Shown here: positions 4,307 to 62,309 of the stretch, piece after piece
Layout: each line of letters opens with the position of its first letter
Numbering within the stretch: the first letter of the stretch is position 1
From: an uncultured Leptolyngbyaceae cyanobacterium
GTDB taxonomy: Bacteria; Cyanobacteriota; Cyanobacteriia; Leptolyngbyales; Leptolyngbyaceae
NCBI GenBank assembly: GCA_938023035.1
Contig: CALIDI010000032.1
Location: 1-63,407 of the forward strand
Direction of reading: 5' to 3'
DNA: 63,407 nucleotides
Notes under the pieces: generated by a model
What the model saw: the letters and a program-made list of their open reading frames with translations, nothing else
Told to the model about the DNA's origin: nothing
Database searches by the model: none
Translations under genes and position numbers: made by a program

Positions 4307-4729
4307 AATCAACTCCTTCACCAAGGCCAGTTTATTGCTTGAGTTCAGTCAGCTTGCGATCGCCCTAAACAGCCAGATTTGGCAAATGAAACCTTCCAGC
4401 CCAGACCGGTTGCTTGACCTGTCGAGAAAGACAGGCTCTGAGTCGGGTCGGGTTTAGGGTAACTGACTCCTGTTATTCTTCAAAAACGACACCCCCATTA
4501 CCTGAGAAATGCCCACAGAAAGATGCCGACCGCTGATAGGAGCTACCCTAGCAAAAGGCACTCCTCGCCCAAACTGAGGACAAGGATAACTCAACAAGCG
4601 GTACGACTCGCCAGTGATTGGCTAAATCAAGAACATGGACGCCTAGCGCTTCCAGAAGTTCCTGGCTCTGTTAAGGTTCCCCAGATTGATCAATACCCAT
4701 CAGGATTTCTTAGAAAAGCTTTGCAATTT

Positions 4730-4866
4730 GGGTGCATGGCACTTTTGCCCTCACCCTCAATCCCGCTCCCAATTTGGGAGAGAGACTTTGAGACGGCTCG
4801 CCTCCCCTTCGCCCAGGTTGGGAGAAGGGCCTAGGGGATGAAGGCCTGCAAAGGTGATAGGCTCTC
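4730..4866. mobile_element. MITE-like element, copy A (137 bp)
   Basis: One of six related copies in this window. It begins GGGTGCATGGCAC and ends with GCTCTC, the mirror image of copy B. It contains the hairpin around CTCCCAATTTGGGAG and a second one around CCCAGGTTGGGAGAAGG. The flanks TGCAATTT and TGTAATTC match at 6 of 8 bases and may be a decayed target duplication. Confidence 0.75.
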
Positions 4867-5437
4867 TGTAATTCTAAAAACACGCCTGAGAAAAGAAATC
4901 TTTTACAGATTCATCTGAAATTAGCTTGGGGTCGGGGAATGGGGTGCTGCGAGAAAATCGCCCTCACCATACAGGTTAAGACACCTTCGCATCCACAAAC
5001 CTTTGTCACGCTTTCTTTTCGCCCCTGTTTCCTGTCATCTATTCCCTATCTACTGCATACATCTCAAGGATCTTTCTTTATTCTTTAGGGTAGCGCTCAT
5101 TCAGGGGCAACTGGGATACAAGGCCCAGATTTTTGAACCGCAAGTCAGGTCAGCCATATAGACTAACCTATAGCTTTTATGAGAAACATTGATTTTAAGT
5201 GATACTTCTTGTGCCCTATGCTTTTTATAGAGGGTTTGTTCTTGTCATTGCCAAGGCCATCTCCGGTGAGACAATGGTGACTAGTCAGCGCTCACATTCG
5301 GCATTCGAGTGATTCGTCTTGCTCTGAGCTAACTGGTTAAGGTGATGCTTAAAGCCGTTACCCCTGTTCACAGTTCTGTGCAGTAGCACCCTTGGCCACT
5401 GGGTGAGTTGTGCGCTGTGTTGTTTTTCGCCATTCCA

Positions 5438-17153: not shown

Positions 17154-17261
17154 GCCACCTGATTGAGGATGGGGTGCAGGGGTGAAACCCCTACCCCTGG
17201 CTGGGGGTAGTGCCCTTACGCCCCCTAACCCTCGAATGGACTCAGTAATCTGGCGATCGCT
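17154..17261. repeat. Dispersed repeat family 2, copy 2
   Basis: It begins GCCACCTGATTGAGGATGGG and carries the GCAGGGGTGAAACCCCT hairpin, then GGCTGGGGGTAGTGCCCTTA, ending at a HIP1 site. It matches 58577-58680 well and 12558-12648 more weakly. It abuts the SGNH pseudogene. Confidence 0.7.
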
Positions 17262-17604: not shown

Positions 17605-17677
17605 AAAAAGGAACCGCCCGAACGTACGTTCAGGCGGAGTGTGGTGTGAGGAGTGAACGGAAACTTGCGTCTCCGCT
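17605..17677 (-). ncRNA. yfr1: Small regulatory RNA Yfr1
   Basis: The minus strand encodes a 5' hairpin (CGGAGAC-GCAA-GUUUCCG, 7 bp with a GCAA loop). Next comes the unpaired Yfr1 hallmark ACUCCUCACAC at about 17645-17657, then a strong terminator hairpin (CCGCC-x-GAACGU / ACGUUC-x-GGCGG, 17614-17637) and a U-run at 17605-17609. A TACAAT box at 17684-17689 places the 5' end near 17677. Yfr1 is a conserved cyanobacterial trans-acting RNA whose loop binds target mRNAs; porin mRNAs are known targets in Prochlorococcus. In marine strains it lies next to guaB; here it lies 240 bp downstream of guaB3 on the same strand. Confidence 0.9.
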
Positions 17678-21265: not shown

Positions 21266-21647
21266 TCTGATTGAATAATTTTATGCAACGTATGGTTAAA
21301 ACAGTCGATGATGCACCGAGACACAACCATCGCCAAGCACGATAAGCTCATCAGAAGAGTCGTCAACGGTCACGCTCAATAGAGTCACAGATCCGCTTGC
21401 CCCCTTGAAGAGAATCACACAATTTAAGGTGATTCACTGGATAAGTCGCAAACACAGACTCGTCCTGATCAGGAAGATGAGATGGTTCTCCCATCTTCAG
21501 AAACAAGGCTGTCGGGCGCTTTTGCCAGATACATGGAGGTTAAATTTCCTGAGAATCTACGGGTTAATCAGTACTGCCATTGAAGGTTGAGGTTACCATT
21601 TTGGCTGCGTGGTAGGAGATGCAAAGCATCTCAACGAAAAACCCGAT

Positions 21648-21784
21648 GAGAGCATGTCACTCTTTCAGGCCCTCATTCCCCAGCCCCTTCTCCCAACCTG
21701 GGAGAAGGAGGGCCGAGCTATCTCAAAGTCCCCCTCCCAAATTGGGAGAGGAATTTAGGCTGAGGACAAAAGTGATATGCACCC
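21648..21784. mobile_element. MITE-like element, copy B (137 bp) with 9-bp target duplication
   Basis: It begins GAGAGCATGTCAC and ends GATATGCACCC. It is flanked on both sides by AAACCCGAT (21639-21647 and 21785-21793), a perfect 9-bp direct repeat. Internal hairpins are CTTCTCCCAACCTGGGAGAAG and CTCCCAAATTGGGAG. It encodes nothing; the frame beginning MRACH is a by-product of the repeat. Confidence 0.85.
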
Positions 21785-22684
21785 AAACCCGATCAACAGA
21801 TATGTCATTGACCATGCAATTTTTCCAGTGCTAAGTCACGCCTAAAAATTAGGGTTGGCTGTAAGTGATAGCGCTGAAGTGCTGACTACGAACTAAGACT
21901 TCACCCTAAAATCATCGGTTGACAAAGCCTTAGCATAGAACAGCAGAAACTTTTGAACTAGCCTCAGCTACTCTCGGCCCCTAGCCCTTCTTCTCCCGAA
22001 GTAGGAGAGGGACTGGGGTAAGGGTAGTCAGACTAATTCCTTAGTCTACTAGCGGCAAGAATTGAAACATGATTTCTTCATCATAAGAGGTGATTTGGAC
22101 TTACGCAGAGCCTACCAACGGTAGTCTCGCCAAAAGGTTTTTCTGCAATTAGTAATAGAATTCCCCCACCGTTGGAAAAAATCACAGTCACCAAGATGCA
22201 TCTCACCTCAGGTATTTTATGGCGATCGTGAAATGGCCACCCTCAGCTAACCTAAATCGTGAGGAGCACAGATGTCATCACTCGTAAAACTCAACATAAA
22301 GATACACAGCAAGCACTTGGTGCTTTTGGCATCTTGTAGTTTTGCTTGAGAACGACATCTTAATTTGTTTACACTTCTTTGCCATCAGTTAGAGTGTTGC
22401 CATACGTTTTAAGGCTTTGAAGTAGGTAGTCCTAGTTAACTGTGAGAAGGGAGCAGTAGGTGCTACGCCGCTGGCAGGGAGTTTCACATCCCTCCACACC
22501 CAAAACCAGCTTCAATTTAATTGTGCCTAGCTACTTATAAGAATTTCTTAAAAACCTAAGCTTAATGTATTTTATAGGCAGGTTGCCCTATGCAGGTTGC
22601 AATCTGTTTTTATTCCACAGGCAAGGCTCTATGCTTAGACTCAGTCAAGGTTAAAATTGGGTTCTTTAAGTCAGAAAACCCCAG

Positions 22685-22758: not shown

Positions 22759-23259
22759 TTAACTTCGGCTGGGCAGTTGAATTCTAGCTGTACCAATGGG
22801 AATTTCTCCTCTCAAGCCAACCCGTTGCCCTGTGATGCTATAAAGCAGGGTACTTCCGCCAGCAGTGAACATCCGCACGCCTACAAACTCCACTTGTAAA
22901 TAGGTACCAGCCATAATCGGTTGATCAAAAGTGATCGCTAGTTTGTCTTTGCTCAGGTTGATTTTTGAGGGGATTTCTTTACCGGTCTGATCAATTACCC
23001 GAACAGACTGGAAGCGCTCCATTTCACCGGGGATAGAAACCATCAAGTCCTGCAAGTCCATACCGATTACGGCAATTCGAATGTAGTGGGTGTTATTGAT
23101 TGCCCCTGAATTAATTATCATTGGTCCAGTGAAATTGAAGACCATTGCGGTATCTGGTTGATTGACCTGCGCTCTTCCTCGCGCCGCAGGTTCAGCCATG
23201 ACCGCCGTCGAAGTTGTCAGCAGCAATGCAGATAAGCCGCCATAGATGAATCTTTTCAT
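22759..23259 (-). CDS. DUF2808 secreted protein
   Basis: A 166-residue protein with a Sec signal peptide (MKRFIYGGLSALLLTTSTAVMAEP) followed by one DUF2808 domain of about 140 residues. This family is common in cyanobacteria and its function is unknown. It has the predicted beta-sandwich look (HYIRIAVIGMDLQDLMVSIP, FDQPIMAGTYLQVEFVGVRM). It is probably periplasmic or outer-membrane associated. A 137-bp mobile-like element ends 37 bp before the start codon, so the promoter lies within or beyond the element. Confidence 0.85.
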   Translation of the reverse strand: MKRFIYGGLSALLLTTSTAVMAEPAARGRAQVNQPDTAMVFNFTGPMIINSGAINNTHYIRIAVIGMDLQDLMVSIPGEMERFQSVRVIDQTGKEIPSKINLSKDKLAITFDQPIMAGTYLQVEFVGVRMFTAGGSTLLYSITGQRVGLRGEIPIGTARIQLPSRS

Positions 23260-23295
23260 TGGGAAATCCTCGAAGTTGATAGGGGTTAATGTCCT

Positions 23296-23432
23296 GGGTG
23301 CATGTCACTTTTGCCCTCAGCCTAAATCCCTCTCCCAAATTGGGAGAGGGACTTTGAGATGGCTCGGCCCCTCTTCTCCTGGGTTGGGAGAAGGGGCTGG
23401 GAGATGAGGGCCTGCAAAGATGACATGCTCTC
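23296..23432. mobile_element. MITE-like element, copy C (137 bp) with 8-bp target duplication
   Basis: It is inverted relative to copy B, beginning GGGTGCATGTCAC and ending GACATGCTCTC. Perfect flanking repeats AATGTCCT lie at 23288-23295 and 23433-23440. It has the same two internal hairpins and sits directly upstream of the DUF2808 gene. Confidence 0.87.
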
Positions 23433-23782
23433 AATGTCCTTCTCGTTAAATGCCTGTGTCAGCACTAAGCTTCAGAATCATTCATGTTGATGAGGTAGTA
23501 CCCATGAATAGATGAGAGCAATCTGAGAAGTTAAGGGGTATATGCTTAAGGATAGGAACCGGCAAGAGCGGTATTAAGATTCGTTGAATTGTGTATAAGT
23601 CGGTGTAGAAAAGTGAAATAAAGCTTAATTTTCTCCACCTAGGATGGATGTTTAAGGGGTGTTGAACGGGGGAGTTGCCACAAGATGCTGAAAAGAGCCG
23701 CAAAGTGATACGAGAAAAAGCCCTCGTTTTTACGGCTTCTAAGCTAGAATATGGCGCGTTACGTCCTGATGGGGCAGCAACC

Positions 23783-27904: not shown

Positions 27905-28414
27905 CACAGCAAGGCGGAAATTTCTAAACTCGTCTAAGCCACCTGCATCCTCTTTTCTTGAATGCCCGCCAGGGCTACGCCCCTACTCCCATCCAGGCAA
28001 AAGGGGAACCGGATCAAAGCCCCTCTCCTCGACCTCCTATGAAGGGAGGCAGAGTGGGGAGACAGGCTGATGCCCTTGTCTACGAGTGCCGCTAAGCGGA
28101 ATTCAAAGTAACAAAACTCAGGATGAAAAAGGCTGAGTGTCTTCGTATTGCAAAACGCTTCAATGGGCGACTCATTTCTGCTGTGGTGGGCTAATGGCAG
28201 ATTAGACTAGACTGAAGCGATAACCGAGCGCCCAAAACGTCGATAGGGGTTCAATTTTACGAGGTTGCGACTCGTCAAAACTTTTCTGACGGTACCTAAG
28301 AGCCGCTCTATCCGGCCAAAGATTCCAATCTCTAGATTGCTCTATTGAGAAAAATTTGCAGTTTTGTCTCCTGCGTGGTTATGTTGAGGGTATTCCGGTT
28401 TGATTTGAAGTCGC
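27905..28414. other. Spacer between tsaE and the cyclase gene
   Basis: About 510 bp without a gene. The region at 27961-28075 is rich in short G/C hairpin words (AGGGCTACGCCCCTACTCCC, CCCTCTCCTCGACCTCC) and may be decayed repeat material. Confidence 0.4.
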
Positions 28415-41776: not shown

Positions 41777-41848
<72 letters not shown>

Positions 41849-43713: not shown

Positions 43714-43871
43714 GAGAGCATATTGCCTTTGCAAGCCCTCATCCCCTAGTCCTTCTCCTAGGTTAAGAGAAGGGGAGCCGAGCCATCTCAAAGTCTTGCT
43801 CCCAAATTGGCAGCGGGATTAGAGCAATCCGGGCATACCAGAAAAGGGTTGAGCAACAGTGACATGTACCC
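43714..43871. mobile_element. MITE-like element, copy D (158 bp, long form)
   Basis: It begins GAGAGCATATTGCC and ends GACATGTACCC. Relative to the 137-bp form it has an extra ~22 bp with CCGGGCATACCAGAAAAGGG near the right end, a feature shared with copy F. No clear target duplication. Confidence 0.75.
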
Positions 43872-51031: not shown

Positions 51032-51451
51032 ACGAGTCTATAATTCCAGAGTTTTTCAGAACAAATAAAACGACCTAATCGCTGAGTAAAGCTAACTTAC
51101 ATACGTCAAATTAAGAATAAGGTAAGCCTCCTTTCACAGAGAGGGTATCACCTTTGTAAGCCCTCATCTCCAGTTTTTTCTTCTTCCCTGGTAGAAGGGG
51201 AGTCGAGCTATCTCAAAACTCTTCTCCTAAATTAGGAGAAAGCTCTAGAATGAGAGCAAAAAAGACATGCACCCTATTGGCAAGATTACTCAATAATCCT
51301 GCCAATACGCTAGCCAAAAACTTTCAACTACAGGTAATCAATAAGGTGTCAGAAAAAGTTATTGCAACACATAAACGGTTAAACCAAATTGGTTAAGAAT
51401 AGCAAGTAATCGCCTAAGCAACGTCTATCAAAAGATAGGTTTAGAAACAAT
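51032..51451. other. Spacer with mobile-like element copy E
   Basis: No gene; mainly the element at 51139-51274 and AT-rich sequence. Confidence 0.45.
51139..51274. mobile_element. MITE-like element, copy E (136 bp, diverged)
   Basis: It begins GAGAGGGTATCACC and ends GACATGCACCC. It has hairpins TTCTCCTAAATTAGGAGAA and the weaker left one, and more substitutions than copies A-C. It is therefore probably older. No target duplication is visible. Confidence 0.7.
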
Positions 51452-58476: not shown

Positions 58477-58576
58477 GTGTGCTAATTGCATCGCCCCCTT
58501 AGTATCAGCGCGTTGAAATCAACTCACCTGAACTGCACAACCGTGGGCTTTCTGACCAAAGCCATACATCGCCATA

Positions 58577-58680
58577 GCCACTTGCTTGAGGACGGGGTGC
58601 AGAGGGTCTCTACCCTGGCTGGGGGTGCGGCCCTACACCCCCTTACCTCCTCATGCACTCAGCAACCGGGGCGATTGCCA
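58577..58680. repeat. Dispersed repeat family 2, copy 3
   Basis: It shares GCCACTTGCTTGAGGACGGG, GTGCAGAGGGT, TACCCTGGCTGGGGGTGCGG and ACCGGGGCGATTGCC with the copies at 17154 and 12558. The 15-mer CTTTCTGACCAAAGC lies just before it at 58548-58562. Confidence 0.65.
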
Positions 58681-62016: not shown

Positions 62017-62196
62017 GAGAACGTGTCACCTTTGCAGGCCCTCATCCCCCAGCCCTTCTGCCAACCTGAGAGAAGGGGGGCAAGCTATCTCAAAGTCCTG
62101 CTCCCTGACCCCCATGAACGGCGACAGGGGGCAGGGAGAGGAATTAAAGCCCTCCGGGCATACCAAAAAAGGGTGAGGGCAAAAGTGACGTGCCCC
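62017..62196. mobile_element. MITE-like element, copy F (180 bp, long form)
   Basis: It begins GAGAACGTGTCACC and ends GTGACGTGCCCC. It shares the CCGGGCATACCA insertion with copy D and carries a further ~22 bp (CCCCATGAACGGCGACAGGG). AGCACGT occurs at 62010-62016 and 62199-62205, a likely 7-bp target duplication with two extra bases on the right. It lies 113 bp before the Rieske gene. Confidence 0.78.
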
Positions 62197-62309
62197 GCAG
62201 CACGTCGTTGCTCCTTTTCAATCTTTCAAAGAGCAAGCATTGTCCGCAATGAAATGAATGCCTTAACCCTAATTTTTCTTTGCTCACTATTTCTAGAGAG
62301 GAGGCCCAC

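Follow-up and report, generated by a model that had tools for sequence, protein, structure and literature searches.

The locus studied here raises the question of how a 137-bp non-coding repeat without a transposase of its own came to be dispersed in a cyanobacterial genome, which enzyme mobilized it and what its palindromic interior represents. A MITE is commonly taken to be the remnant of a single transposon, and among the MITEs Nezha is a cyanobacterial example that is short, present in many copies, bounded by inverted ends and mostly intergenic. In this study, the repeat was analyzed in the window, i.e. the whole stretch of 63 407 nucleotides, in its source assembly (G000; 4.75 Mb, 62 contigs, 95.9% complete) and in other genomes of the class. 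It is highly probable that the element is a MITE with ends recognized by an ISKra4-family transposase; its interior is a separate module and most likely passive cargo.

Copies of the element and evidence for insertion

Copy B (21648–21784, plus strand) was identified by direct reading and by a match to the element model; it is 137 bp long and is flanked by the perfect 9-bp direct repeat AAACCCGAT, read at 21639–21647 on the left and at 21785–21793 on the right. Copies C (23296–23432) and A (4730–4866), identified by the same two means, have the same length and lie on the minus strand, opposite in orientation to B. Copy C is bounded on its two sides by a perfect 8-bp repeat, AATGTCCT (23288–23295 and 23433–23440), and has its end 36 bp away from the start codon (ATG) of an open reading frame on the minus strand (22759–23259); the flanks of copy A, TGCAATTT (4722–4729) and TGTAATTC (4867–4874), mismatch at two of eight positions. 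The direct read thus bears out the lengths, repeats (perfect at B and C, with two mismatches at A) and relative orientations that an earlier sequence-only reading had reported. Its letters for two of the ends are corrected here: copy A starts with GAGAGCCTA rather than GAGAGCATG, and the terminus of copy B is TATGCACCC rather than CATGCACCC. The imperfect terminal inverted repeats that it described (GAGAGCATGTCACC versus GGGTGCATGTCACT in the consensus) and both internal hairpins are present, as are six copies in all. The other three lie on the plus strand and comprise a long form with a 23-bp insert (copy D, 43714–43871; best 8-bp flank match 5/8), a strongly diverged copy that differs from the consensus by 24% (copy E, 51139–51274; 4/8) and the longest form, of ∼181 bp (copy F, 62017–62197; 7/8). 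All six are located outside open reading frames of at least 150 amino acids, which make up 72% of the window. The element is also matched in part by decayed sequence at 27978–28048 (nhmmer E = 0.00024), and the window contains a tRNA at 41777–41848 (plus strand) and, at 17612–17676 (minus strand), a Yfr1 RNA, which marks it as cyanobacterial.

The sequence-only reading had named two outcomes that would speak against it, a lack of further copies and orthologous loci in relatives that carry the element at every site; neither was observed. A search of the source genome with a model built from 33 copies returned at least 150 matches, and the consensus right end, with up to three mismatches, was matched 145 times versus zero times for a reversed control pattern. 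Two main sizes were found among 121 copies, ∼137 bp (46 copies) and ∼160 bp (75 copies), the larger having a 23-bp insert close to its right end, so that the element is short, non-coding and dispersed in many copies, as is expected of a MITE. Shortened forms of ∼76–116 bp, in which at least one hairpin is gone and both ends are kept, were observed at L045, L046 and L049.

Target-site duplications were scored in these 121 unique copies with both ends, which were taken from loci L001–L061 and L124–L203 and from the window; matches below 40 bits, copies with incomplete ends, copies too near a locus end and duplicates were left out. Perfect duplications flank 38 copies, 19 at 8 bp and 19 at 9 bp, and when a single mismatch is tolerated the count rises to 67, again at 8 and 9 bp only; the other 54 copies have none at this tolerance. 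Only one perfect duplication in total was found at 4–7 and 10–12 bp, and the perfect-match rate for mis-paired flanks was at most 0.0002 at 8 and 9 bp. The fixed length of the target-site duplication that characterizes MITEs is therefore seen at 8–9 bp.

Furthermore, the joined flanks of two copies align unbroken to paralogous sequence lacking the insertion. Those of the L023 copy match the window at 17154–17254 and 58571–58670 as well as two other places (12–19 bp on the left and ∼80 bp on the right, with 74–77% identity), and those of the L150 copy match L179 (20 + 22 bp, 86%). The two window intervals belong to a separate repeat of ∼100 bp, further copies of which occur at L179 and L035/L049. 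Inspection of the joined flanks by eye gave no convincing open frame spanning any insertion. For the gene that neighbours copy C, 22 further genomes of the family yielded matches, which are at most 70% identical and in many cases paralogous; the full element was found at none of 29 loci near these distant, partly paralogous homologues, one of which (L221) has partial core matches, and this absence is weak evidence for empty sites. Taken together, the copy number, the inverted ends, the sharp 8–9-bp duplications and the uninterrupted paralogous sites support the earlier proposal of DNA-transposon-type insertion by an element without its own transposase.

The transposition burst in the source genome looks old, because the mean divergence from the consensus is 10.9% (range 4.4–24.3%, 121 copies), the two most similar of the 26 copies that measure exactly 137 bp share 93% identity and the mean identity of the duplications, scored for each copy at 8 or 9 bp, whichever fits better, is 0.80, which by arithmetic is about the value expected if both sides had each decayed by 11%. 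Copy by copy, no correlation was found between duplication quality and divergence (Spearman −0.09, p = 0.33).

Candidate transposase and distribution

The transposase searches covered ISKra4 (NF033572) and RAYT. NF033572 is present in 161 of the 291 genomes of the class. Among 29 ISKra4 loci from 29 genomes, both ends differ from the MITE end at no more than four of 18 positions in ten, one end does so in three and neither does in 16; perfect 8–9-bp duplications were found at eight of the ten loci with both ends. In G142, a complete one-contig genome of the same family as the source that also carries the window-type MITE, MITE-like ends were found at 20 of 30 ISKra4 loci, with perfect 8–9-bp duplications at 17 of the 20. 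These elements are of three kinds (1154–1188 bp), with the ends GGGTGC(A/G)TGTCACC, GAGTGCATCCCA and GGGAGCGTGTCAC, and the window-type 137-bp MITE of the same genome has perfect duplications in 12 of 17 copies. The transposase from one same-ended ISKra4 element scored 263.5 bits, where the cut-off is 205. The search for full-length transposons with the same ends, which had been suggested as a check, thus led to ISKra4 elements in other genomes, which are intact, 1.15–1.19 kb in length and share the MITE ends (GGGTGCATGTCAC...). Since these intact elements share both the ends and the 8–9-bp duplications, the sequence comparison points to ISKra4 as the most likely family of the missing transposase.

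The ends of the MITE and of the same-ended ISKra4 elements differ by 1–5 of 18 positions per end (1–4 for the IS whose ends are nearest), and no exact end partner was found among the ISKra4 elements compared. The 62-contig source assembly yielded no intact ISKra4 but two matches below the cut-off, both with stops; an intact transposase and the window-type MITE were therefore found together in G142 and not in the source assembly. The presence of only two decayed ISKra4 relics beside copies that are 4–24% off the consensus is a further reason why the burst looks old. A full-length transposon in the source genome was also sought at 16 consensus ends without a model match by scanning ∼3 kb beside each, and none was found; 14 of the 16 sites were inspected and look like shortened, rearranged or decayed MITEs. 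These ends were drawn from 100 of the 145 end matches, and four long-form copies were fetched alongside them.

Compared with the cyanobacterial ISKra4 IS (NF033572, ∼1.15–1.19 kb), the window element has similar ends (GGGTGC or GGGAGC followed by ATGTCAC...) and duplications of the same 8–9 bp, whereas it lacks a transposase. In a BLAST comparison of the MITE consensus with six ISKra4 IS the ends alone matched, with nothing detectable in the interior, and in these six elements no sign was found that the interior was derived by deletion from an autonomous element. A deletion-derived interior is not required of every MITE. The proposed mechanism is that an ISKra4-family transposase would recognize the MITE ends in trans and would insert the MITE at an 8–9-bp staggered cut, giving rise to the flanking direct repeats, and that this movement has probably ceased in the source genome.

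The likeness to ISKra4 ends could alternatively reflect coincidence or convergence in a MITE moved by another family. IS families besides ISKra4 also make 8–9-bp duplications, and the lack of a detected intact ISKra4 in the source genome would fit such an origin; however, among the ISKra4 loci compared, the independent match of both ends and of the duplication length in ten genomes and at 20 loci of G142 renders it improbable.

With E values of up to 1e−28, the window-type model matched six of the 291 genomes, namely the source itself (G000), G142, G195, G050, G018 and G020, the last with one copy. No match was obtained at this threshold in G001, a relative of the same genus, which gave two weak matches in another search. 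G050 appears to correspond to the MAG Synechococcales cyanobacterium M55_K2018_004, in which identical insertions occur. The distribution of the window-type MITE is patchy.

In the literature searched on ISKra4, MITEs and cyanobacteria, no description of an ISKra4-type MITE of this sort was found in the text accessible. The accessible text of PMC10969869 cites the Nezha MITE, and that of PMC3542288 describes MITEs of Anabaena sp. 90 that are short, multicopy, mostly intergenic and bounded by inverted ends, and that have inverted repeats in three sets, as the window element does. Both resemble the window element, as far as their descriptions go, in being short and multicopy with inverted ends. 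The Anabaena sp. 90 elements differ from it in that, in the same text, they are reported without ends common to the IS of that genome (PMC3542288).

Predicted RNA folding of the element

The sequence-only reading had also proposed that each copy would fold as RNA into a three-armed structure. An outer stem with two hairpins, in line with this proposal, is predicted for both strands of copy C; one long hairpin is predicted for the minus strand of B and the plus strand of A, and a mixed fold for the plus strand of B and the minus strand of A. The z-scores of the predicted folds on the two strands are −4.4 and −5.8 for B, −6.1 and −6.1 for C and −1.6 and −2.4 for A. In the 121 copies, pairing in the two hairpins slightly exceeds that in shuffles [0.866 versus 0.850 (s.d. 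0.004) and 0.898 versus 0.885 (s.d. 0.003)], as does the number of double changes (27 versus 17.1, reached by two of 300 shuffles, and 19 versus 11.9, reached by seven of 300), and no pairing excess was found in the outer stem or the inverted ends.

The strong predicted folds of B and C and the excess in the hairpins are what would be expected if the repeat were kept mainly as a structured RNA or a transcription signal, with its transposon-like features being secondary. However, the excess is small and confined to the hairpins, and kinship among copies can yield such an excess. Furthermore, there was no Rfam match at the gathering score (a second search gave chance-level hits only), no promoter- or terminator-like match was found within B or C, and no convergent gene pair flanks any of the six copies in the window when open reading frames of at least 150 amino acids are taken as genes. 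This explanation is very unlikely, and the pairing excess lends slight support to selection on a three-armed RNA. The favoured reading is that the element is a transposon with the core as its cargo, and there may be a weak constraint on the hairpins.

The two-hairpin core across the class

By comparison with other genomes, the core of copy B is placed at 21669–21766 (plus strand). The core is 93–98 nucleotides in length and consists of GCCCTCA(T)CCC followed by two hairpins and then TTTAGGGTGAGGG; the linker between the hairpins mostly ends in AAAG or AAG. It has 69 invariant columns in nine genomes, a set biased to likeness since it comprises the eight best-per-genome matches to the window model and the consensus of the latter. 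At E values of up to 1e−6, with scoring limited to 28 copies per genome, 98 of the 145 class genomes, including the source, gave a match to the core; it also occurs in 13 of 72 556 plasmid records, all cyanobacterial by name, and no match was found among 50 697 phage records.

At 80 further core loci from seven genomes the flanking ends differ. Two kinds of core element occur in G017, one with ISKra4-like ends and perfect 8–9-bp duplications in eight of nine, and the other with the ends TACAGCC...GGCTGTA and TA on both sides in four of the five rows read at full length (the end pattern stopped early in four of nine rows). Those of G029 end in CAATA(G/C)TTCGG...AGTATTG, with 6–7-bp duplications that are perfect in four of six. 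In G015 the ends are CTAATC(C/T)TGTAG...CTACA(A/G)GATTAG, the elements are located in the loops of other palindromes and the 9-bp duplications are perfect in two of four and have one mismatch in the other two. G142 has two core copies with CTAGT ends. At five G015 loci (L348, L349, L351, L352 and L357), CTAATCCTGTAGGGG-ended MITE-like elements flanked by 9-bp duplications (e.g. CTCCCAAAA) occupy the loop of a further core-type hairpin, as though the tips of palindromes were the target.

The mean core identity in G017 is the same between kinds as within each kind (0.95), whereas in G015 it is 0.92 between kinds versus 0.97–0.98 within them; in G142 the kinds differ more (0.84–0.90), and the cores of ISKra4 type are closer to same-ended cores elsewhere (0.91 to G000 and 0.96 to G036). 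Because of these identities, some of the sharing of the core between element kinds looks recent and some old. In addition, the core-adjacent sequence of the TA-flanked elements of G017 is partly like an ISKra4 end (46% identity versus 24–33% in three other within-genome comparisons), and this pair may represent a nested MITE and not an independent capture. A shared core would arise most simply through MITE nesting, which was seen in G015 and may have occurred in G017.

Of the 30 core loci that were the best in their genomes, about one-third have no ends that are recognizable by eye; an inverted-repeat test on the core flanks was passed by 39 of 110, at a threshold too strict to recover known elements. 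At L248 and L263, in two genomes, a core without recognizable ends lies in frame within a helicase-type open reading frame (859 and 848 amino acids open). Rickettsia palindromic elements also sit in frame inside open reading frames. At L077 in G008 (1501–1612), a repeat of GATCCCCC type is laid out like the core, with two hairpins and an outer stem; its stem sequences differ, and its junctions (TAAATCCC and GGGACTTTGA) resemble those of the core.

The inverted hairpin pair with similar outer tags and the core copies without recognizable ends might point to a palindrome pair of the REP/REPIN kind, mobilized by a RAYT (Y1) transposase. This reading is scarcely credible for the 137-bp element, in view of its 8–9-bp duplications, which Y1 transposition is not known to make, of the lack of a RAYT match in the core-rich G000, G142 and G050 and of the presence of a core within ∼1.5 kb at only two of 30 RAYT loci; it may apply to core copies without ends. 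The accessible text of PMC3733652 describes REP/REPIN palindromes with RAYT as inverted hairpins that occur in pairs and are scattered through intergenic DNA, which the window element resembles in both respects; it differs in its target-site duplications and terminal inverted repeats and in that no link to a RAYT gene was found. Among the literature matches listed for core strings, none was by its title a paper on cyanobacterial repeats.

The interior of the ISKra4-type MITE would thus be a palindromic module separate from ISKra4, with two hairpins inside a GCCCTCA/TGAGGGC outer stem, and most likely passive cargo passed among MITEs by nesting or recombination. Only tentatively, and with the balance of probability against it, can the core be regarded as an independent mobile or selected module that gets into non-autonomous transposons belonging to several families, or is retained by them; if this were true, the core would be exchangeable shared cargo and not the interior of one MITE family.

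The window element belongs to a known kind, the ISKra4-type MITEs, and the class-wide core makes this variant unusual. A likely and testable transposase can now be named for a repeat that is present at least 150 times in the source genome. Across a bacterial class, one palindromic core is framed by the ends of several types of transposon, and a core common to several families would make both the traffic of cargo between transposons and any benefit of the palindrome, for movement or for the host, directly testable.
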